Shown here: positions 10,783 through 34,179 of the stretch, piece after piece | Position numbering within the stretch: the first letter of the stretch is position 1 | Layout: every line of letters begins with the position of its first letter | Source of the DNA: Campylobacterales bacterium | GTDB taxonomy: Bacteria > Campylobacterota > Campylobacteria > Campylobacterales > Sulfurimonadaceae | DNA: 64,000 bases | Reading direction: 5' to 3' | NCBI GenBank assembly: GCA_014859655.1 | Contig: JACUTT010000003.1 | Location: 20,766 to 84,765 of the forward strand | Translations under genes and position numbers: made by a program | The notes under the pieces: generated by a model | The model's input: only the letters and a program-made list of their open reading frames with translations | Databases searched by the model: none | What the model was told of the DNA's origin: nothing

Positions 10783-11853
10783 CTATGCATTTTTGAACTT
10801 TTCATAGATAGCACGGACCTCATCGAGATGGGCGATAAAGAGTCCGCACAGCCCAGGATCAAAATGGCTTTCACTCTGCACTTTCAAATACTCAACCGCC
10901 TCTTCAAACGGCCATGACTCCTTATAGGGACGCGTACTGGTCAATGCATCAAAAACATCTGCTATAGCCGTAATGCGGCCATAAAGAGGAATCTGTTCGC
11001 CCTTGAGTCCCTGTGGATACCCACTGCCGTCAAACTTCTCATGGTGGCTTTTCGCAATGACTGCGCCGGCTTTGAGGTAGGGGTTTTGGCTTGAATGCAA
11101 GATCTTCCAGCCGATGTCGCAATGCTTCTTCATCGCATCCATCTCCGCCTCATCGAGCCTGCCTGCTTTAAGCAAGATGGCATCGCTGATGCCGACTTTG
11201 CCGATGTCATGCAAGGGGGAAGCATAAAAAACAATCTCCTGCTCCTCTTCATTCAGGCCATATTTAAGTGCCAGCAGTCTTGAATAGTGTGACACGCGCG
11301 CGACATGGCTAGCTGTTTCGGGATCCTTGTACTCTGCCGCACTGGACAAGACTTTCAGGGCCTCTTGTTCTCGCTGAAGAAGGGTTTGCGTAGCTTTGGC
11401 AACCTCTTTTTGCAGCTGATGATTAAAATCATCCAAGATCAGCTGAGAGAGCTTGAGCTTGGTGATATTACTGATGCGTGCACGGTACTCCGCCGCATTG
11501 ATCGGTTTTTTTAAAAAATCGATCGCACCCATCTTTAGCGCTTCGAGCTTGATCTTCTCGTCATCGCCTGCCGCAGTGATCATAATCGTCATGATCTCAG
11601 GATTGATCGCATGCGCTATTTTCATCAATTCTATTCCGTTAATGTCAGGCATCATGTAGTCAACCAGCAAAATATCAACAGGATTACAGGAGATATACTC
11701 CAGTGCTAACTTAGGATCAGAAAAGGTCAGCATATTGGGGTAGGTCTGCTGCGAGATTGCTTTTAGCAGTTCGAGATTAAAAGTTTCATCATCAACGGCA
11801 ACAACATGCAGCTGCTCGCGCATCTGTTTGTCCGCTCCAGCTTTACTCTGCAT
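10783..11853 (-). CDS. Response regulator: REC + HD-GYP c-di-GMP phosphodiesterase
   Basis: REC (VDDE...[12 protein letters not shown]...KKPI); HDIGKVGI...[21 protein letters not shown]. Start moved to ATG 11853 (AAGG upstream), overlapping the upstream stop. Confidence 0.93.
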
Positions 11854-14800
11854 CCTTACCCCCGCTATAGTAGTTTTTGAGATCGTCAAAAAGTCTGCTG
11901 AGCTCTTCAAGCTCCTGTGTGTAGTCCATCTTCTGCTTGTTTTTCACACCCTGCTCGATCTGTTCTGCTACTTTTGTTATGCTTTCAAAGCAGAGCGAAG
12001 AACTTGCGCCTTTGAGCTTGTGCGCCAATGCCGAAAGCTCTTCAAGCAGGCTCTGTTTTTGCGCCTGCACCATCTCGTTTAGAATATATTCTGTCGTCTG
12101 AAGGAATTTTTCAAGCAGCCCCCACATGATCTCATCGGGGAGCTCCAGCATCCTGCCTGCCTTTTGCAACGCAGCTTTGATCTCACGCACCGGCACCTGC
12201 GTTTTCTCACTTTTTCTATTTATGGAAGAGTATTTTCGCAACAGGGCTTCAAGATCACTGATATTTACCGGTTTACCCAAAAAAGCATCTATTCCCGCAT
12301 CAATAAAGCCTTTGATGTCATCCTCGGCCACGTTGGAAGTCAGCGCTACAATCAGCGGTGTCTTGTTCACAGGTGCGGCTTCGATTATCTTCTTTGCCGC
12401 CTCTACTCCGTTCATTACCGGCATATTGATGTCCATCAAGATAATATCGAAATGTTTTTGTTTCGCGTACGTGAGCGCTTCCTGCCCGTTCGCCGCGATA
12501 TAAGGCGAGATCCCGTGTTTTGCCAGAAGCTCAGTGATGAGTATCTGGTTTACCTCGTTGTCCTCGGCGACTAGGACCTGCAGATGGCTGCCGTCAAAGG
12601 GGAGACTCTTGGGGGAGTTTTTAGACAGGGTGCCGGCATGCTGGTACAAAATATTGTACAACCGCGTCGAACAGCAGTGATAGCAGTTGATCATCTGCAG
12701 GTTCGAGCTCAATGGTATCAGCTGAGACTTCGGGTCGATACAAACAAGCAGAAGCTGCTCTCCTTTGAGCTCCTCATGCAGGGCAAGGGCCTCTTTTTCG
12801 TCAAAGACGATGATGATGTTCTTATCGCTCTCGCGCAGTCTTGCAATGGAGACCATGCTGGTCTCAATGCCGAAAACACCAAGATAGCCTTTCACCTGGT
12901 CGCTGTCCTGGCTGTTTTCAAGAAGATGGATGCGCTGCTGCTTGAGCAGGTCCGAAAGCCTCTGCATCTCTGTCTGGCACTTTTGCAGCTCCAGCACGAA
13001 AGAAAAAGTGCTTCCCTCGTCCTTATGGCTGCTAAGCTCTATTTTGCTTCCCATCAGCCCGACCAGAGAGGAACTGATGCTAAGACCCAGACCTGTACCG
13101 CCGAACTCACGCGTCGTCGAGCTGTCTTCCTGGGCAAAGGCTTCAAAGATCTTCTCCTGCCGCGCTTCGCTAATGCCGATTCCCGTATCTTCTACCGAAA
13201 ACTCTATCTGCTGCGAAGCAGCACTCTCCTGGAGCAGCTTGGCACTAATCCCTACCTTCTGCCCCGGCATAGTGAACTTTAGCGCATTGTTAATCAGGTT
13301 CGAGAGCACCTGCTTGAGATGCAGTCCGTCTGCCTGCAAACACTCTGCTATAGCAAGATCCACGTCGAGATAGTAGGCAATGTTTTTGCTCTGTGCGGTG
13401 GAGAGGTAGTTCATGTAGAGCAGTTCCATCTCTTTGAAGAGGTTGACCTCGATCAGATTGATGTGCAGCTTGCCCTGCTCTATCTTGGAGTAGTCGAGTA
13501 TCTCATTGACGACCCCCAGGAGCATATTGGTCGAATTTTTGATGATGTCGAGGTAGTGGTGCTGCTCCTCGCTGAGCGAGGTCTCACTCAGCAGACCCGC
13601 AAAACCGATGATCCCGTTCATCGGCGTTCTGATCTCATGGCTCATGTTGGCCAGAAAATCGGACTTCGCATGTTTAGCCTCTTCTGCGCGAAGGCGTGCG
13701 TTTTCAAGTTCGGTGATGTCGGTCAGCGTGGAGATGTACATCTCCTCTTGGTTGAAATAGATCCGTTTGGTGCGCACACGGAAGGTCAAAATATTGCCAT
13801 TTTTGTCGAGCATATACTCCTGCTGGAGTATCTCCTCCTCATCATGCGCAAACTCCGAAAGGTGGCACTCGCTGTCGCTGCAGCCGATCCTCCTCCCCTT
13901 CTCATCGACATAAAGATCGCAGATGCAGTCAAACTCGCTTAGAAAATCGTCCACGTCTGTGAAGTCGAAGCAGTCGAAGAACTTCTTGTTTAAAAAAGTG
14001 ACCTTTCCATGCTTCGTGGTCAGGGCTACAATGCTCTCCTGGTTGTCCAAAATCTGGTGCAGCCGCCGCTGGCGCTCTTCCAAGTTTCTCTCATACTGAA
14101 TCATCGCGGTCAGGTCTTCGCGCAGCGCGAGGTACTCAAAGACCTCACCGTCCTTGTCCAAAACAGGAAAAATGGAGGCGTGGACATAGTAGCTCGAGCC
14201 GTCTTTGTTGCGGTTTTGAAGCATTCCTGTCCATGTTTTATTTGATTTTAGCTCTCTCCACATCTCTTCAAACACTGAGGATGGGGTGTCGGGATGGCGG
14301 ACGATGCTGTGCGGCTGACCCACAAGCTCCTCTTTCGAGTAGCCGCTGAGTTCGCAAAAACGGTCATTTGAGTAGATGATGATGCCGCGGGTGTCTGTCT
14401 TGGAAACCAGGATCGATTTATCGAGTGCATTTTTATACTGGCTAAGCAAAGAGATCGAAACCCTGCTCTCTTCGAGCTGTTTGCTTAGCTCCTTGGTCGT
14501 TGCCTCTACTAGATGATGCATAACTGCTGTGGATCGTCGCCTCGGTGCGCTTTGCAGAGGGTCTGATTTTTTTCTTTTTGGCACGACGCTGCTTTCACAG
14601 AGCCCCAGGATCACACTGCTGATGTTGAAAAATCGGTTCTTTCCCCCGCTTCGGGTAAACTCCCCGTAAGAGAAGAAGCCTGCCTGCGGTGCCAGCTGCG
14701 CCAATGCCGTGTACTCCGTCTGCATCTTCTTGTCACAAAACAGCTTTCTTGCTCCGCAGGAGTAGACAAAAAGCGACTCCAGCGGTTGCTGCTGCGCCCG

Positions 14801-15694
14801 GGCATAGATCTCGGCCGTGTTGTCTATGGCGGCGCTTTCGTCGCCGATGCCGAAATAGACCCTGCTCCCCTGGGGAATATGCGAGGAAAAGCACAGAGCG
14901 CCCTCCGGCGTGCTTCCTACTGCAGAACGGGCTATCTCTACCCCCTCCTGTTCAAAGACCAACGGAAACTCGATGATAGACTCGGGAATGTTTTTTATGG
15001 TCTCTTTGCCCAGATACTTCGCGTAAAGATTCAGCGCGATCTCCCCGTCGATCTCATAGATGCAGTTCCCCTGTGAGCGCGTCACCTCCATACCTTTGCC
15101 GATGCGCCTCCAGCCAAAATTGTGGTCCGTAAAACAACGAAGCTCACTCCCGCTCAGTGCTGCAGCCACGACTCCGCCGGGAATGATCTGTGTACCGTGG
15201 ATGACAAAGGGCGTATCAAACAAAAAGTTGTCCCCCGCGCTTCCTCCCACGACAAGGACCTCTTCGCCGCCGGCCTCGTTAAAGCCGCGCAAAAGCTCGT
15301 CGCCGCTGTAGTGCAGGCTATCCATAAAAAGGATGACACATTTGGTATCACTCTGCAGTAATGACGCAGCCATCTCTTTTCCGGTTTCATAAGCCCCGCT
15401 GCCGCTGCCGCTAAAAGTCTTTACCCGGCTTTTGTCAAATTCGCTGATGCTGATAAGCGTCTTTTTCTCATGTACGCTTCCCTCAAGGATCTCTCCGCAG
15501 CTCGATGTGCCGATGATATGCGCCTGGGGAAAATGGGCCTTGATGCTCCTGGTGATCTCAGCCAGTGCTTTTTTGTCCAGTACCCCGTCAAATATCTGTA
15601 CCAGTATCTGTCCCAATGAACCCGAACCCCACTCTTGCTCAAGCCAGGAAAGCATCTTCTCTGTGGTCTCATAAAGATAATTAGTGCTTCGCAT
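11843..15694 (-). CDS. FIST-domain hybrid histidine kinase (FIST-PAS-PAS-HisKA-HATPase-REC-HPt)
   Basis: 1283 aa; FIST ([21 protein letters not shown]), PAS ([21 protein letters not shown]), [33 protein letters not shown] ([16 protein letters not shown]), HPt ([13 protein letters not shown]). Confidence 0.92.
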
Positions 15695-15908: not shown

Positions 15909-17222
15909 ATGAAAAAAAATATTTTAGTCGTCGAAGACAATGAGCTCAATCTCGAAGTGATCCGGCTTCTCGTAAGCCAGTATGCCCAGGAGCAGGACGA
16001 GCCTATCGAAATCTTTAGCGCCAGTGATGGACAGATGGCGGTGGAGCTGTGCAAGATGCAGCAGATCGACATTATCTTTATGGACCTGATGATGCCGATC
16101 ATGGGTGGCATCGAAGCGACCAAACAGATCAAAGCCGCGCACCCCAAGACAATGATCATCGCTGTCTCCGCTTACGGGGATGAGGAGAAACAAAAACAGA
16201 TGCTGCGTAACGGGGCCGAAGATTATATGACAAAGCCTCTTAATGCCCTCCTCTTCAAAAACCGCCTGCGCAATTATCTGAAGCTGCTCAAAACCCGAAA
16301 CCACATTGGCAACAAGGCAAAGGCGCGCAACCTTTTCACCTCAAAGGCCTATAACTACCACATAGACTTCACCGTGGCCACCGATGCAGATCTTTCGGAG
16401 TTTTGGGAGGCGATACTGATGCGCTTTGACTTTCAGCGTCACATCGAACATATAAGCGATTTTGTCCGTTTCGTCTACCGTCTGGGCATGCTTCAGCTGC
16501 AAAACAGGTACAAGTTCCATATTGTGATCGAAGAAGACACCGAGCATTTCTACTTTACGCTCGACAACATCAAGATGTTGGGATGCGTCAAGATTAGCGC
16601 CCTGCTGGCGAAGCATTACGAGCAGGCAGAGTATCTGTGCAAGGAGAACATTCTGAGTTTTTCACTCGCAAAGATGCCGCCCGAAGAGCTCGAAGTACTT
16701 CTGCCGGACGCGCCTGCTATAGCCGCCCCGGCGCAAAACGCCAATGCTATCATAATGCAAACACCCAAAGATGAAGAGAAAAGGACATTTGCTATCCTCG
16801 AACCCGATGAGCTGCAAGAGTTTGAGGACTACCTTCTCAAACTCCGCTCGCTTATCCTCATGATGGAAAACAGCAGCCTTGAAGCCTCCGATATCGAAGA
16901 ACTTTGCAGCTGCTTCAATGAAATGGGTTCTATTCTCTCCATATCCAACGACAGCTACGTCCTCTCCAATGCCCTCAAACAGCTCTCTTCTGCTATAGCG
17001 CACAACCATGAGAATTTCAGCGAGAGTTCCTCCCAGCTCTTTGACTTTGTCAACGCCTTTGTCAACGACCTCATCTTCTGGAAAAACAAGATATTTTACG
17101 AGGGCGCGCCGAGCGTCGACTTCCTCAACGACTCCATCACCAGCAACGCCAACATGCTCCACTCCCTCCTGCAGCCCAGCACAAAGGGCGATGAAGAGCT
17201 TGATGACATTTTTGATTTCTAG
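15909..17222 (+). CDS. Response regulator: REC + uncharacterised middle region + helical C-terminal module (tail DDIFDF)
   Basis: REC VVEDNELNLEV...DIIFMDLMMPIMGGIEATKQI...TKPLNA; C-terminal region unrecognised but similar to the next gene. Confidence 0.85.
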   Translation: MKKNILVVEDNELNLEVIRLLVSQYAQEQDEPIEIFSASDGQMAVELCKMQQIDIIFMDLMMPIMGGIEATKQIKAAHPKTMIIAVSAYGDEEKQKQMLRNGAEDYMTKPLNALLFKNRLRNYLKLLKTRNHIGNKAKARNLFTSKAYNYHIDFTVATDADLSEFWEAILMRFDFQRHIEHISDFVRFVYRLGMLQLQNRYKFHIVIEEDTEHFYFTLDNIKMLGCVKISALLAKHYEQAEYLCKENILSFSLAKMPPEELEVLLPDAPAIAAPAQNANAIIMQTPKDEEKRTFAILEPDELQEFEDYLLKLRSLILMMENSSLEASDIEELCSCFNEMGSILSISNDSYVLSNALKQLSSAIAHNHENFSESSSQLFDFVNAFVNDLIFWKNKIFYEGAPSVDFLNDSITSNANMLHSLLQPSTKGDEELDDIFDF

Positions 17223-17341
17223 GATGCTTAGGCGTTCTTATTAGAGGGAATTTTGGTTTTTAAGTTAAGTTCAACTACTATTGCAAACTTATCTAAACAT
17301 TCAGGAACTTAGATGTACTCATATGTCAAACGGATAAAACT

Positions 17342-18634
17342 ATGAAAAAAATATTAATAGTCGACGATAATGAAAACAACAGAATGCTCCTGCGGGCACT
17401 TTTAGAAGATTATGCGGAGGACAATCAGGTAGCCTTGAGTCTTGACGAAGCCGCTAACGGCAATGAGGCATGTCTGGCTGCACAAAAGATACATTATGAC
17501 CTCATCCTGATGGATATCATGATGCCGCAGATGGACGGTATCGAAGCGACTCGGCAAATTCGCGGATTTGACGCCAAGGTAATGATCGTTGCTGTTTCGG
17601 CGGTTGATGACGGTGAACGCCAGCGCCAGATAATTCAAAACGGCGCGGAGGATTACATTCCCAAACCTATCAATGCCGACATATTTGCGGCACGTATGAG
17701 CATCTACTTTTCCCTCATCGCCTCGCGTAGCAGCGTGCACAAAAAAGATCACCTCACGCCTGAAAATCTCTTTAGCAGTGATATTTTCAGCCGTAAATTT
17801 CTTTTTTATGTGCACAACGACGATGAACTTGCCGAGTTTTGGGAGTACTACCTGCTCGAATCTCCCGAACGCAGCGAAGAGCTCAGCGATGCGACGCGAA
17901 CACTCTACGCCGTCGCTGCCGTGGCTGTCAACATGGGTGAAAAGCCGAGCATTGCGGTAGAGGAGTCCCTGGATGAGCTTTACCTCACCCTTGTGGGACT
18001 TGAAAACATCAACCCCAAAATCATTACGCTCATCATGCTTAAAAACCCCATCGTTACTGACTATAAAATGGACGCAGACAAACTCTGCATCCGCGTCCAG
18101 CGTCCCTTGACACAAGTACCTGCCACGCCTGCTTTAAAAGCAGAGCCTGTACAAGCAGCGGTTTATACCCCCGCTGAGGAGACGATTCAAGTCTATGACT
18201 ACATGGACCCCGAGGACCTGCTCGATCTCAAAGAGTACGTCGGCAAGCTCAACTCTTTGATGATGATCGTCGGCAGCGCCATCGATGGCACTGAGGTCGA
18301 AGAGATCGCTGCAAACCTGCAGCAGATCAGCAGCGTGAGCGCAGGCTATACCCAAAGCTACCCTATCTCTGTGGCACTGGGAAGATTGGGCAGCGTCATT
18401 GCAGCCCAAGTAGAGAGATTTATCGAAAAATCCAATGACCTTGCGCCGATGTGCAGCGCATTCGGACGCGACCTGGGCAGATGGATAGAGCTTATCTTTG
18501 TCAAAGGCGCGAGCAGTGTGCACTACATGGATGACACCATACTCGTCAATGCACAAACCATCGAAGATATATTGAGCATGGATGACGAACAGGCAGGATC
18601 AGCAGAGGACCTCGGGGATATATTTGATTTCTAA
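17342..18634 (+). CDS. Response regulator paralogous to 15909-17222 (tail GDIFDF)
   Basis: REC VDDNENNRMLL...DLILMDIMMPQMDGIEATRQI...PKPINA; similar C-terminal module. Confidence 0.85.
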   Translation: MKKILIVDDNENNRMLLRALLEDYAEDNQVALSLDEAANGNEACLAAQKIHYDLILMDIMMPQMDGIEATRQIRGFDAKVMIVAVSAVDDGERQRQIIQNGAEDYIPKPINADIFAARMSIYFSLIASRSSVHKKDHLTPENLFSSDIFSRKFLFYVHNDDELAEFWEYYLLESPERSEELSDATRTLYAVAAVAVNMGEKPSIAVEESLDELYLTLVGLENINPKIITLIMLKNPIVTDYKMDADKLCIRVQRPLTQVPATPALKAEPVQAAVYTPAEETIQVYDYMDPEDLLDLKEYVGKLNSLMMIVGSAIDGTEVEEIAANLQQISSVSAGYTQSYPISVALGRLGSVIAAQVERFIEKSNDLAPMCSAFGRDLGRWIELIFVKGASSVHYMDDTILVNAQTIEDILSMDDEQAGSAEDLGDIFDF

Positions 18635-18643
18635 GCTTAGGAA

Positions 18644-21600
18644 ATGAGAATGGTACGCGAACACATACGCAAGGCGGCAGCATGGGCAGGTGGCACCAAC
18701 CGCTCTATTCGTTCCTCTTTGATCGTCTGGTTTTTTCTTCTGGCAATTTTTCCCTTTGTCTCGGTTTCCTGGTATACCTATGAAAAAACCATCCAAAACG
18801 TTGAACAGATGCAGCGCGTCAAACTTGAGGACAGCTCTGTTCAGCAGGTAGAGGGCCTGTTAAAGCGTTTTTACGAGACCCATAGAGACATACAGGGATG
18901 GTCAAAATTCAAGGAGACAAAGGCTCTTTTTTCGGCACTTCACCGCGAACATAAAAACAGCGGCCTCAGTCTGAAAACCTATGTCCAAAGCCCCGCATAT
19001 GCCGCACTCACCGCCCAGCACACAGACCTTCTGGAAGTGGCTAAAAAACACTTTGCCCACATTCACGATATTTTCCTGATCGACCTTGAGGGCAACATCC
19101 TCTACACCGTCGCCAAAGAATCCGACCTGGGGACCAACCTCATCAGCGGGGACTATGCCGCCACCCGCTTTGCGGCTGCGTTTCGTAAAACCCGAGAGGA
19201 TGAAGGCGCGTATTTTTCAGATATGGAGCATTATGCGCCGAGCGCTGGTGCGATTACAGGTTTTATTACCCAGCCGCTTTATGATGCCTCAACCACAATG
19301 ATAGGAGTCATAGGCCTTAAACTAGATATGGACATACTGCTCTCTAGCACAGAGACAAAGCAGAAGAGCAGCATTTCTCATTATCTTGTCGGAGAGGATG
19401 GCCTCCTGCGCACGATGATAAATGACCCGCAGGAGCTCCTTAGTCGGCGCATAAGTTCGACACTTTTTCACAACTGGCAAAAGAACCATGCCCTGCCTCC
19501 CTCTGCGTCCCAAGAGAGGCTCAATATGGCTATTTGCTATCAGGGTCCTGATGCGCGGATGGTAATGGGACACGCTGAGTCGGTAGACCTGCTGGGCGTC
19601 AAGTGGGTGCACATAAGCGAAATAGACGAAGAGGACCTCATGGCGGTTCCTCGCACTCTTGCCTTTCTTATCAGCGGCTTGAGCCTTCTCATCGTCATTC
19701 TGGTCATGGGAATGGCAATTCTTATCTCCGGACGCATCACCCGGCCCATTGCGGCACTTTCCGAGGCGAGCCACCGTTATATGCGCGGGGAAAAAGATAT
19801 CCGCGTCGCGATACTTTCGGAAAATGAGATTGGTGAGTTTGCGATGGTGTTCAACCGCCTTATCCAGGCACAAGAAGAAAACGAGCGTGCACTTAGTAGC
19901 CTTGCCCATGAAGCAAAAGAGGCGCTCAGCTCTTTGGAAGAGCAAAAACATGCCCTTGACGCACACTCCATCGTGACGATCACGAATGTCAAAGGCACCA
20001 TCACCTATGTCAACCAAAAATTTGAAGAGATAAGCGGCTATAGTGAAGCAGAACTTCTCGGCGCCAACCACCACATTATCGAATCAGGCTTTCATCCCAA
20101 AGCCTTTTGGACAAACATGTACCACACCATCAGCCAGGGAGAGACATGGCATGCCGAGGTATGCAACAAGGCCAAAAACGGAAGGCTCTACTGGGTGGAC
20201 ACAAGCATCGTTCCTTTTTTAAACGGTGAGGGCAAACCGGTAAAATACATCGCCATCCGCACCGACATCACCGCGCGAAAAAATGCCGAAATGCTCATTT
20301 CCGAAAAAGAAGGGACCTTGCAGACACTTCTGAACTCCGTGGCAGAGGGGATATACGGGATTGACACACACGGTAACTGTACTTTTGTCAACCGCTCTTT
20401 TTTACGCATGCTCGGCTTTGAAAACGAAGAAGAGGTTCTGGGAAAGCACATCCACTCTCTCATCCACCATTCGCACGAAGACGGCTCGCCCTATCCGGCT
20501 TCGAAATGCAAGATGTACAAGGCCAACATAACCCATGCGCCTTCGCATGCCGATGACGAGGTCTTTTGGCGCCGTGACGGCAGCAGCGTAGCTGTTGAGT
20601 ATTGGTCCTATCCTATGATGCGCGAAGGGGCCTTTGTCGGGGCCGTTGCCACTTTTCTTGACATCAGCGAACGCAAAAAAGCCCAGATGGAAATTCTTGC
20701 AGCCAAAGATATTGCCGAGTCCTCCGCGCGGGCTAAGAGCGAGTTTTTAGCGACCATGAGCCATGAGATCCGCACCCCGATGAATGGGGTTTTGGGCATG
20801 CTCGGGCTGCTTTCTTACTCCCAACTGGATGAAACCCAGCGCCATCAGCTGAATCTGGCCAGCGGCAGCGCGAACTCTTTGTTGGGGCTGATCAACGATA
20901 TTCTTGACTTCTCCAAGGTCGAAGCGGGAAAAATGGAACTCGAGATGATCGAGTTCAACCTGCGCGAGGAGCTGGGAGATTTTGCCGAAGCGATCTCGTT
21001 CAAAGCCCAGGACAAGGGGCTGGAGCTCATCTTGGACACCACGCAGCTTAAACGGCAAAATGTCATCACCGACCCGGGACGCCTGCGTCAGATCTTAACC
21101 AATCTCGTCGACAATGCGGTCAAATTTACCCACCGCGGCGAGATTGTCATCAGAGTGCGGCTCGAAGAGAGCGACGAAGGCCATGGAGAGCTCTTCATTG
21201 AGGTACGCGACACCGGCATCGGAATTCCCGCTGACAAAATCGATACCCTCTTTGAGAGTTTTACCCAGGCAGATACCAGCACCACACGAAAATATGGGGG
21301 CACAGGCTTAGGCCTTGCGATCGCCAAACAGCTCTGCGTGCTGATGGGCGGTTCTATTCATGCGACAAGCACACAGTACGAGGGGAGTACTTTTCATATG
21401 AAGATCAGGGTTGGGCTTAGCAACAAGCCTGCACTGACACTTCCTGACGTCTCGGTCAAAGGCCGCTCCGTGCTCGTCGTCGATGACAACGACACCAACC
21501 GTGCGGTAGTGCGGGCACAGCTTGAACTCTGGGGCATGGAAGTGTACGAGGCCGAAGATCCTCTTATCGCCTTTGATTACTGCCGCATCCGCATTTCGCA

Positions 21601-22954
21601 GGGACACACCCCGCCTTATGACATTGCCCTGCTCGACATGCAGATGCCCAACATCGACGGGGCGGAGCTCGGCCGCGAGATCCGCGAGATCACAGCCTGC
21701 AATGACATGAAACTGGTAATGATGACCTCCCTTGGCTCACGCAACGATGCCAAGCGCTTTGCCCGGATGGGATTTAACGCCTTTTTTGCCAAACCGACAA
21801 CAACAAATGACCTTTTCAAAGCCCTGAGGGTGCTCTTGGATAATGCTGAAGCCCTCGAGGGTGCCGGCGAAATTGTTACAAAAGACTACATCAGCACCCT
21901 CGATGAAACAAGCGAAGCGGTGGAATGGCCTTCAAATACGCGCCTGCTCCTTGTTGAAGACAACCCGACCAACCAAATGGTCGCACAGGGAATGCTCGAG
22001 ATGATAGGCCTCAAGGCCGACATCGCCAATGATGGCTCTGAAGCCCTTGAATCCTTGAAATTCGGCCTTGAAACTGTCCCCTATACGCTCGTATTGATGG
22101 ACTGCCAGATGCCCAATATGGACGGCTACGAAGCCTCGACGGCCATACGCGAAGGCCGGGCGGGCGAAGCAAACAAAAATATTCCGATTATTGCGATGAC
22201 TGCCAATGCGATGAGCGGAGACCGTGAGAAATGTCTCCTCTCGGGCATGAACGACTACGTCAGTAAGCCCATCAATCTAAACGTTTTGAAAACAGCCCTT
22301 CTGACCTGGCTGCTGGGCCAAAACCCCGGACAAACCCTTCGTGACACGGTCCGCGTCACTCCGCCGAAAAAAAGCGATACCATCTGGGACCGGGCCGAAG
22401 CCCTTGGGCGTATGGGGGGCAAAGAATCGCTCTTAATGAAGATCCTTGACTCTTTTGTCGGCGAGAGCGAAAAGATGGTGGGGGAGTTGACTGCAGCGAT
22501 GGACAAGGGTGATCTCTCCGCCGTCTGCCTGCATGCCCACTCGCTCAAAGGCTCCGCCGGCAACATCAGCGCGCATAAACTTCAGGCCCTGGCAAAAGAG
22601 ATGGAATTTGCGGCAAAAAATGGCCAAAACAACGAATGCACGCAGCTGCTTACACCGCTCAAAGAGGCCCTGGGCGAATTGCTGACACATCTGAGCACGA
22701 CAAACGCGCAGCAGCCCTCCCAGTCAAAACGCAAAAAATGCCTCGACTCTTTGCAGATAGCCATTGCACTCGAAGAGCTCAAAAAACAGCTCATCGCAGG
22801 AAGCTTCATCGACACCGAACATATGAAATTGTTTACAGGCTGTGCTGACGAGGCCTTTAACGAAAAGATGCTGGTCTTGCGTCTACATATAGAACGTTTT
22901 GAAACAGCAAAGGCCTTGGCCATGATAGAAAATCTCATCTCAGGACTGGATTAA
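18644..22954 (+). CDS. Cache-HAMP-PAS-PAS hybrid histidine kinase with REC-REC-HPt
   Basis: 1436 aa; periplasmic region between TMs, [16 protein letters not shown] (HAMP), [16 protein letters not shown], two REC domains ([26 protein letters not shown]), HPt ([12 protein letters not shown]). Confidence 0.93.
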
Positions 22955-33132: not shown

Positions 33133-34179
33133 CTAAAAAAATTCTATCTCGCCGGCATCAATCTCTTCGGGACAAATAAGCCCGATGACCTGTTGAATAC
33201 TCAAGGAGGTAGGTTTGTGGATATGATGAATATTTTTCATCGCCATACTCTCGACTGAAAAACGTTTGAGGTAGCCCTCTATATCGTTCCTGATCGCATC
33301 CATCAGAGCAAAAAAGTGTTGCTGGTTCTCGCTGAAGAGATCGCTGACCCTGTGTGTGTCGGCGACGATGACGGAACCGAGTTCTTCCATGCTCTGTGCA
33401 AGCGGATCAAGAAAGGGGGAGTAGAGATACAGCAGAGAGGACATTTTGCGAAAATGCTCACCGATCTTCTCGATATGGCAGAGGTTGCCGTCGCTGCCGA
33501 AACGCGAAAGCGCATCAATGCCGTCTTCCATGATCTCTAGCATCTCATCGCAGTCATTGGGGTGAAAGAGCACCTTGTCCTCCTCCTCCTCGTCACGCTC
33601 AAAATACTCCTTGACAAGAAGGTTCTCCTCGCCCTTGATGCCCTCTTCGAGGAGCAGCTCTATCTGCTGGTGTTTGACCGCCGTGGCATTGGTTTGGGCC
33701 CTGAGCATCCGAATCTGTTTTTCAAGTGTCGCTCTTTGTTCATTCAGGGTCTCAACGAGTTCGAGGTTCACCTTCTGGGCATTGGCATCGCGGCATACGC
33801 TGTAGAGCACCTTGAGCACATTTTCCTGAATGACGGGTTTGAGGATGAAGCTGCTCACCCCGCTTTGGATCAGGTTGATCAAGATGTCGGACTCATTGTG
33901 CGCGGAGATAGCGATGATCTTCTGATCGAGATTGATCTCACGGATATGCTCTATCATCTCTATGCCGTTCATGACAGGCATATTGATGTCGGTAATGACC
34001 AGGTCATAAAAGTGCTCGTTATAGCGCTCCAGACCCTCTTTGCCATTGCTTGCCATGTCGATACGGGAAAAAAACGGCTCAAAGAAAAAAGCCATCTCAC
34101 TGCGCAAAATGGGGTCGTCTTCGACATAGAGCAGATCAAGGGTGTGCGAAAAGGCGTGAATAGATTTTGCCGTTATCAT
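33133..34179 (-). CDS. Response regulator: REC + coiled coil + helical C-terminal module (tail EIEFF)
   Basis: LLYVEDDPIL...[16 protein letters not shown]...LKPV; C-terminal half weakly similar to 15909/17342 products. Confidence 0.85.
   Translation of the reverse strand: MITAKSIHAFSHTLDLLYVEDDPILRSEMAFFFEPFFSRIDMASNGKEGLERYNEHFYDLVITDINMPVMNGIEMIEHIREINLDQKIIAISAHNESDILINLIQSGVSSFILKPVIQENVLKVLYSVCRDANAQKVNLELVETLNEQRATLEKQIRMLRAQTNATAVKHQQIELLLEEGIKGEENLLVKEYFERDEEEEDKVLFHPNDCDEMLEIMEDGIDALSRFGSDGNLCHIEKIGEHFRKMSSLLYLYSPFLDPLAQSMEELGSVIVADTHRVSDLFSENQQHFFALMDAIRNDIEGYLKRFSVESMAMKNIHHIHKPTSLSIQQVIGLICPEEIDAGEIEFF

Follow-up and report, generated by a model that had tools for sequence, protein, structure and literature searches.

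Two adjacent genes in a 64,000-nucleotide stretch of a Campylobacterales genome (GCA_014859655.1, contig JACUTT010000003.1; the whole stretch is called the window here) encode proteins that begin with a receiver (REC) domain, and the locus raises the question of what the remainder of each protein does, in particular whether it is a CheZ-like helical phosphatase with a REC-docking tail. The preliminary description had reported two adjacent REC proteins with a common middle and C-terminal module and acidic-hydrophobic ends. Both open reading frames and the quoted peptides, including the two tails, were found at the coordinates given in Table 1. P0001 and P0002 are paralogous along their full length (34% identity over residues 3–437, E 9e-68), so their common middle and C-terminal regions are not a chance resemblance.

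Domain assignment was done using Pfam and NCBIfam. Pfam gave Response_reg alone (residues 5–113, E 2.3e-23 in P0001; residues 4–114, E 1.4e-24 in P0002), NCBIfam gave REC and nothing further, and no CheW-like or ParP-like domain was found in either protein by Pfam. When Pfam was run on every member of the family described below, no consistent domain was detected after REC. Both proteins have the REC fold with the phospho-acceptor Asp, the Ser/Thr and the Lys, and these active-site residues are kept across the family (D59 in 52/54, S87 in 53/53 and K109 in 52/54 sequences). The P0002 gene ends 9 bp before a hybrid kinase gene, which is followed by REC-GGDEF and REC-HD genes.

Table 1. Coordinates of the two genes, their domains and associated features (window positions, except for the last row).
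Feature	Position	Strand	Description
P0001	15909–17222	+	437 aa; REC / RsbW-like domain / P1-like helical domain / acidic-aromatic tail (predicted folds)
P0001 REC domain, residues 1–130	15909–16298	+	D59 phospho-acceptor, S87 and K109 all present
P0001 middle domain, residues 150–255	16356–16673	+	beta-alpha-alpha-beta-beta-alpha-beta-beta; predicted RsbW/SpoIIAB-like GHKL fold; without N-box and DxGxG
P0001 helical domain, residues 299–421	16803–17171	+	predicted CheA-P1/HPt-like bundle, without conserved His
P0001 tail EELDDIFDF	17193–17219	+	
P0002	17342–18634	+	430 aa; paralogue with the same architecture
P0002 middle domain	17762–18112	+	by alignment to P0001 residues 140–258
P0002 helical domain and tail	18167–18631	+	by alignment to P0001 residues 285–437
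P0002 tail AEDLGDIFDF	18602–18631	+	
Hybrid kinase dCache-HAMP-PAS-PAS-HisKA-HATPase-REC-REC-HPt	18644–22954	+	directly 3' of P0002; candidate phosphodonor
Hybrid kinase FIST-PAS-HisKA-HATPase-REC-HPt	11843–15694	-	divergent from P0001; candidate phosphodonor
Third tail-bearing REC protein	33133–34179	-	348 aa; REC and same helical module; tail GEIEFF; beside histidine kinase genes
Mini-CheZ, unnamed CheZ-like protein	L238 7066–7455		130 aa; about 40 homologues

Using the part after REC as query, the family was found in 31 of the 100 related genomes searched. When 84,980 species genomes were scanned with the pattern GA[PS]Sx[DNH][FY], which favours close relatives, 60 family loci were obtained, all titled Campylobacterota: Sulfurimonas, Sulfuricurvum and their relatives; two of the loci are in one MAG named Arcobacter sp. 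and one is in a MAG named Helicobacter cetorum. The wider helical-plus-tail module, searched for as a profile, was detected in 5 of 121 genomes that sample the phylum evenly; in the genome of the window itself it was detected at exactly three places, all within the window (P0001, P0002 and the third protein of Table 1). Literature searches turned up no published account of the family. P0001 and P0002 are members of an unnamed Campylobacterota family of response regulators that is linked to chemosensory genes.

To predict the folds after REC, a full-length AlphaFold (AF2) model of P0001 was built on a 56-row alignment, with a mean pLDDT of 86.7; it comprised REC, an alpha/beta domain, a group of helices and a disordered tail, with the boundaries given in Table 1. 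A REC-less model (pLDDT 83.2) was made because the full-length Foldseek search was saturated by REC matches. No Foldseek match of the REC-less model in the PDB reached E < 0.001. Its best 11 matches were RsbW or UsfX/SigF-system anti-sigma proteins (E 0.011–0.053, probability 0.99–1.00, TM to target up to 0.71, identity about 7–11% in the best matches), followed by CheA P1 (3kyi, probability 0.97, E 0.17; also 1i5n and 2lp4) amid weaker random bundles. A PDB profile search with both domains returned chance matches only (designed helical bundles and ferritin) and was discarded.

In the model, residues 150–255 resemble RsbW, SpoIIAB and UsfX (HATPase_c_2) in the order of secondary structure elements and in predicted fold; from these proteins the family differs in its missing N-box and G1 box, its fusion to REC and its lack of sigma-factor neighbours. 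The G1 box was present in 0/49 and the N-box in 1/49 middle domains, against 13/14 and 10/14 of the control HATPase_c_2 domains. The helical domain is predicted to form a bundle like the four-to-five-helix one of CheA P1/HPt, but without their conserved His, as no position after REC has His above 34% in the family alignment, and without profile support; its invariant residues are F384, D387, W391 and F396 (P0001 numbering). Profile-profile tests of both C-terminal domains against HPt, CheA P1, CheZ, MCP, CheW and HATPase_c_2 gave no support, with HPt/P1 and HATPase homology below 1%. The middle domain is best described as an RsbW-like GHKL domain and the helical domain as P1-like, both predicted to be catalytically dead, on the strength of moderate fold calls. 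The earlier statement that no known output domain is present thus holds at the sequence level (Pfam, NCBIfam, profiles) but not structurally, where the two fold matches were obtained, neither of them CheZ.

The tail was then evaluated across the family. Of the 82 unique members that are 340 aa or longer, 81 have F as their last residue and 50 end in exactly DDIFDF; other endings are DGFEFF, DLELF, EIEFF and similar. We use 81/82 as the unbiased figure, since the per-position tail table was compiled from 58 sequences preselected by IFx[FY]. Linker positions -10 to -16 vary, unlike the conserved tail. An acidic tail with terminal F was present in 60/62 family members compared with 3/588 neighbouring proteins. 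Conservation of the tail in orthologues, on which the preliminary description had staked its reading beforehand, was therefore found. Homologues of the third tail-bearing protein, which ends in EIEFF, carry DDIFDF ends within the same genus, so the two spellings look interchangeable. One CheD-family protein (L311, G068:C1:1028900-1032000) ends in ETMEIELF, a tail of the same class; most CheD proteins seen elsewhere are without an acidic-aromatic tail of this class.

The genomic-context survey proposed at the outset was run, and neighbour clustering around family loci recovered CheA, CheR, CheB, CheW/CZB, a HEAT protein and a ParA-like ATPase; chemosensory genes adjoin at least 32 of 52 family loci. 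A typical operon (L121) reads CheB-HEAT-CheR-CheY-mini-CheZ-CheY-CheA-CheW/CZB-CheW/CZB-ParA-family gene. A sister subfamily, whose tails include DLELF, belongs to a second chemosensory operon with CheA, CheR, CheD and CheB, again adjoining a PAS kinase. In the tree, P0002 is nested in the chemosensory-operon clade with four such loci (support 100/100) and P0001 groups with kinase-linked members; P0001's clade, and both the P0001 and P0002 copies, lie outside the che operon. The che operon of the window's genome is on another contig and has no family gene after ParA, and in a genome of the same genus a 67-aa remnant of the gene persists between ParA and grpE (L241, about 12192–12398). Together these suggest that the family gene was relocated or lost at its apparent ancestral site next to ParA in the window's genus. 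Chemosensory classes of Campylobacterota are among the subjects of PMC9321776.

The 130-aa protein of the operon, here called mini-CheZ, matched no Pfam family, Pfam CheZ included. It contains AxxYQDxxxQ, with DxxxQ invariant in 23 aligned members, and its invariant core QxQDxxxQQ, preceded by an A, is the same as the CheZ motifs AxxF(Y)Q and DxxxQ, with Y in epsilon-proteobacteria (PMC7750401). The hhalign alignment of its profile with CheZ fell precisely on the catalytic motif (probability 48, E 1.8e-4; controls below 3%). Canonical CheZ (PF04344) was not detected in the window's genome and was over the cut-off in 0/60 relatives. The mini-CheZ tail (e.g. DDEIEFF) is [DE]xxEFF-like in nearly all of about 40 homologues, and it is acidic with terminal F in 39 of 41 sequences. 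Counting clear matches and setting three weak ones aside, every genome with mini-CheZ also carries the family (22/22, versus 9/78 of those without it; Fisher p 2.7e-15, with kinship ignored and operons partly shared). At five loci, four of them distinct (L117 and L118, which are near-identical, L030, L038 and L056), mini-CheZ lies 13–22 bp from a gene for a tail-bearing REC protein, outside any visible che operon. Over 13.4 kb the oppositely oriented contigs C34 and C35 of genome G000 (L238, L239) share 99.99% identity, which is probably assembly redundancy.

The analogy drawn originally between these tails and that of CheZ has been much strengthened, by the conservation of the tail, by the chemosensory linkage of the family and by a mini-CheZ in the same operon with the catalytic motif and the same tail class. 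By this analogy, the tail would dock where the mini-CheZ tail does, probably on CheY-type REC domains. Our favoured reading, put forward tentatively, is that the family consists of tail-bearing response regulators built of dead kinase-type modules, whose tail and P1-like domain bind CheY-type RECs and so modulate the CheZ-like phosphatase. CheA or a neighbouring histidine kinase would phosphorylate the REC of a P0001/P0002-type protein, which would expose or reposition the P1-like domain and tail; the two would in turn engage CheY-type RECs, or the site used by mini-CheZ, without phosphotransfer, and the protein would compete with, recruit or shield against the phosphatase, tuning the duration of CheY phosphorylation. 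If the tail docks on a CheY-type REC in the manner of the CheZ peptide, and if the P1-like domain binds RECs but is dead for phosphotransfer, the protein would compete with or steer mini-CheZ under the control of its own phosphorylation.

To our knowledge, only a few kinds of REC-binding peptide are well described, namely the CheZ, FliM and WalK tails. The C-terminal peptide of CheZ binds CheY (Guhaniyogi 2006, as cited in PMC9087282). E. coli CheZ, which ends in VDDLLDSLGF, resembles the family in having an acidic-hydrophobic C-terminal peptide after a helical domain and a linker; the family tail is shorter and not obviously helical, which counts against docking of the CheZ type. In WalK, an acidic tail with a W motif serves to bind WalR (PMC9087282). 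Like the family tail it is disordered and acidic-aromatic, and it is needed for binding of the response regulator, but it is located on a kinase and has W instead of a terminal F. Two further comparisons were made by description, with the nearest functional parallels in the phylum: ChePep, which is found in Campylobacterota only and positions CheZ (PMC11237671), is phylum-restricted and CheZ-linked as the family is (PMC11237671, PMC5447363), and CheO of Campylobacter jejuni, likewise a Campylobacterota-only protein, has an accessory role in chemotaxis, binds both CheA and CheZ and was reported without a known domain (PMC9665402).

A broader proposal, which is speculative and as a whole rather unlikely, is that the [DE]-hydrophobic-x-F terminus is a common docking code of environmental Campylobacterota chemosensory systems, carried by minimal CheZ proteins and by pseudo-kinase response regulators, and that the phosphorylated regulators compete with the phosphatase for CheY, acting as an anti-phosphatase that is assembled from dead CheA-type modules and controlled by phosphorylation. 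One short conserved terminal motif across several protein families of a chemosensory operon would offer a handle on the wiring of accessory regulators and phosphatase. For the chemosensory systems of free-living Campylobacterota, the results extend the accessory classes by an uncharacterised gene adjacent to the core and by a minimal CheZ missed by Pfam; they suggest that the family is a control element of bacterial sensory arrays that has been overlooked.

The strongest competing explanation is that the family protein serves localisation, by way of ParA or the array. As an adaptor, it would be the partner of the ParA-like ATPase encoded next to it and would position the chemosensory array, its tail being an address tag that is read by an array component and shared with mini-CheZ for co-recruitment. 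In 17 of 22 loci ParA directly precedes the family gene, with a gap of 0–58 bp, and in other loci a REC-PAS histidine kinase is directly upstream. The tail class is common to at least two protein families and the CheD of one genome, and polar localisation of CheZ requires ChePep (PMC11237671, PMC5447363). Against this, P0001-type and kinase-linked members have no ParA nearby, and Pfam detects neither a CheW-like nor a ParP-like domain in the family protein; we regard the adaptor as possible, though on the unlikely side.

It is improbable that the tail is instead an intramolecular latch, docking on its own REC or RsbW-like domain as an autoinhibitory element that is freed upon phosphorylation. 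The flexible linker, the conserved tail and the conserved REC active site speak for such a latch, but both AF2 models leave the tail undocked, at low confidence, and mini-CheZ, a protein lacking REC, carries a tail of this class too. Still less can be said for a partner-switch effector, in which the RsbW-like domain would sequester a sigma factor or STAS protein with REC phosphorylation as the switch and the helical domain and tail as accessories. RsbW and UsfX are the best structural match, but at the low identity given above; the ATP motifs are lost and the gene neighbours are CheA, CheY and ParA, not sigma factors, so that this explanation is quite improbable.

The SSB of the window's genome has a chemically similar tip (DEDEIPF), which speaks for reading the tail as a general acidic-hydrophobic signal at the C-terminus that has nothing to do with REC docking, for example an SSB-like tip or a signal for degradation. 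The DNA pattern for DIFDF followed by a stop gave 44 matches in 100 genomes compared with 12 for the reversed pattern, and among the frame-checked loci every DIFDF-ending open reading frame of more than 100 aa encodes a REC or helical-module protein, that is, a signalling protein; this and the chemosensory gene context make a general signal very improbable. The loose tail pattern [DE]x[DE][LF]F was at control level in many genomes and is useful only with the reading frame checked.

The analogy with which the locus was introduced, if taken literally as a CheZ-like helical phosphatase that acts on neighbouring REC proteins, is not supported. The helical part is not CheZ-like, since hhalign against CheZ gave 0.4% and no CheZ was among the 50 best Foldseek matches of the REC-less model. 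Compared with CheZ (E. coli; F3-class CheZ of Campylobacterota), the family has neither the CheZ motif nor a profile or fold match in its helical domain, and REC and the RsbW-like domain are added. CheC/CheX had no Pfam match in any member, and Foldseek points elsewhere. Although the order of helical domain, linker and tail recalls CheZ, and the invariant D387 and W391 recall the DxxxQ spacing, DxxxQ and AxxF/YQ are absent from the family helical-domain alignment, the nearest fold is CheA P1 and a CheZ-like protein is already present in the operon, so that we give a phosphatase of the CheZ type hardly any credence.

Variant architectures were also observed among the relatives. An apparent expansion was seen in one related genome (G064), where many REC proteins, at least six of them read, combine the helical module with an ELF/EFF tail. 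In L052, L053, L054 and L058, some with REC and some lacking it, the helical module with an EFF/ELF tail is fused to an unassigned sensor-like domain of helical type that shows the pattern CP-x-ML-x-FF-x-K. Members in L134, L135 and L155 are truncated or split at the junction of middle and helical domain; in L155 the helical domain is apparently lost and DDIFDF is kept.
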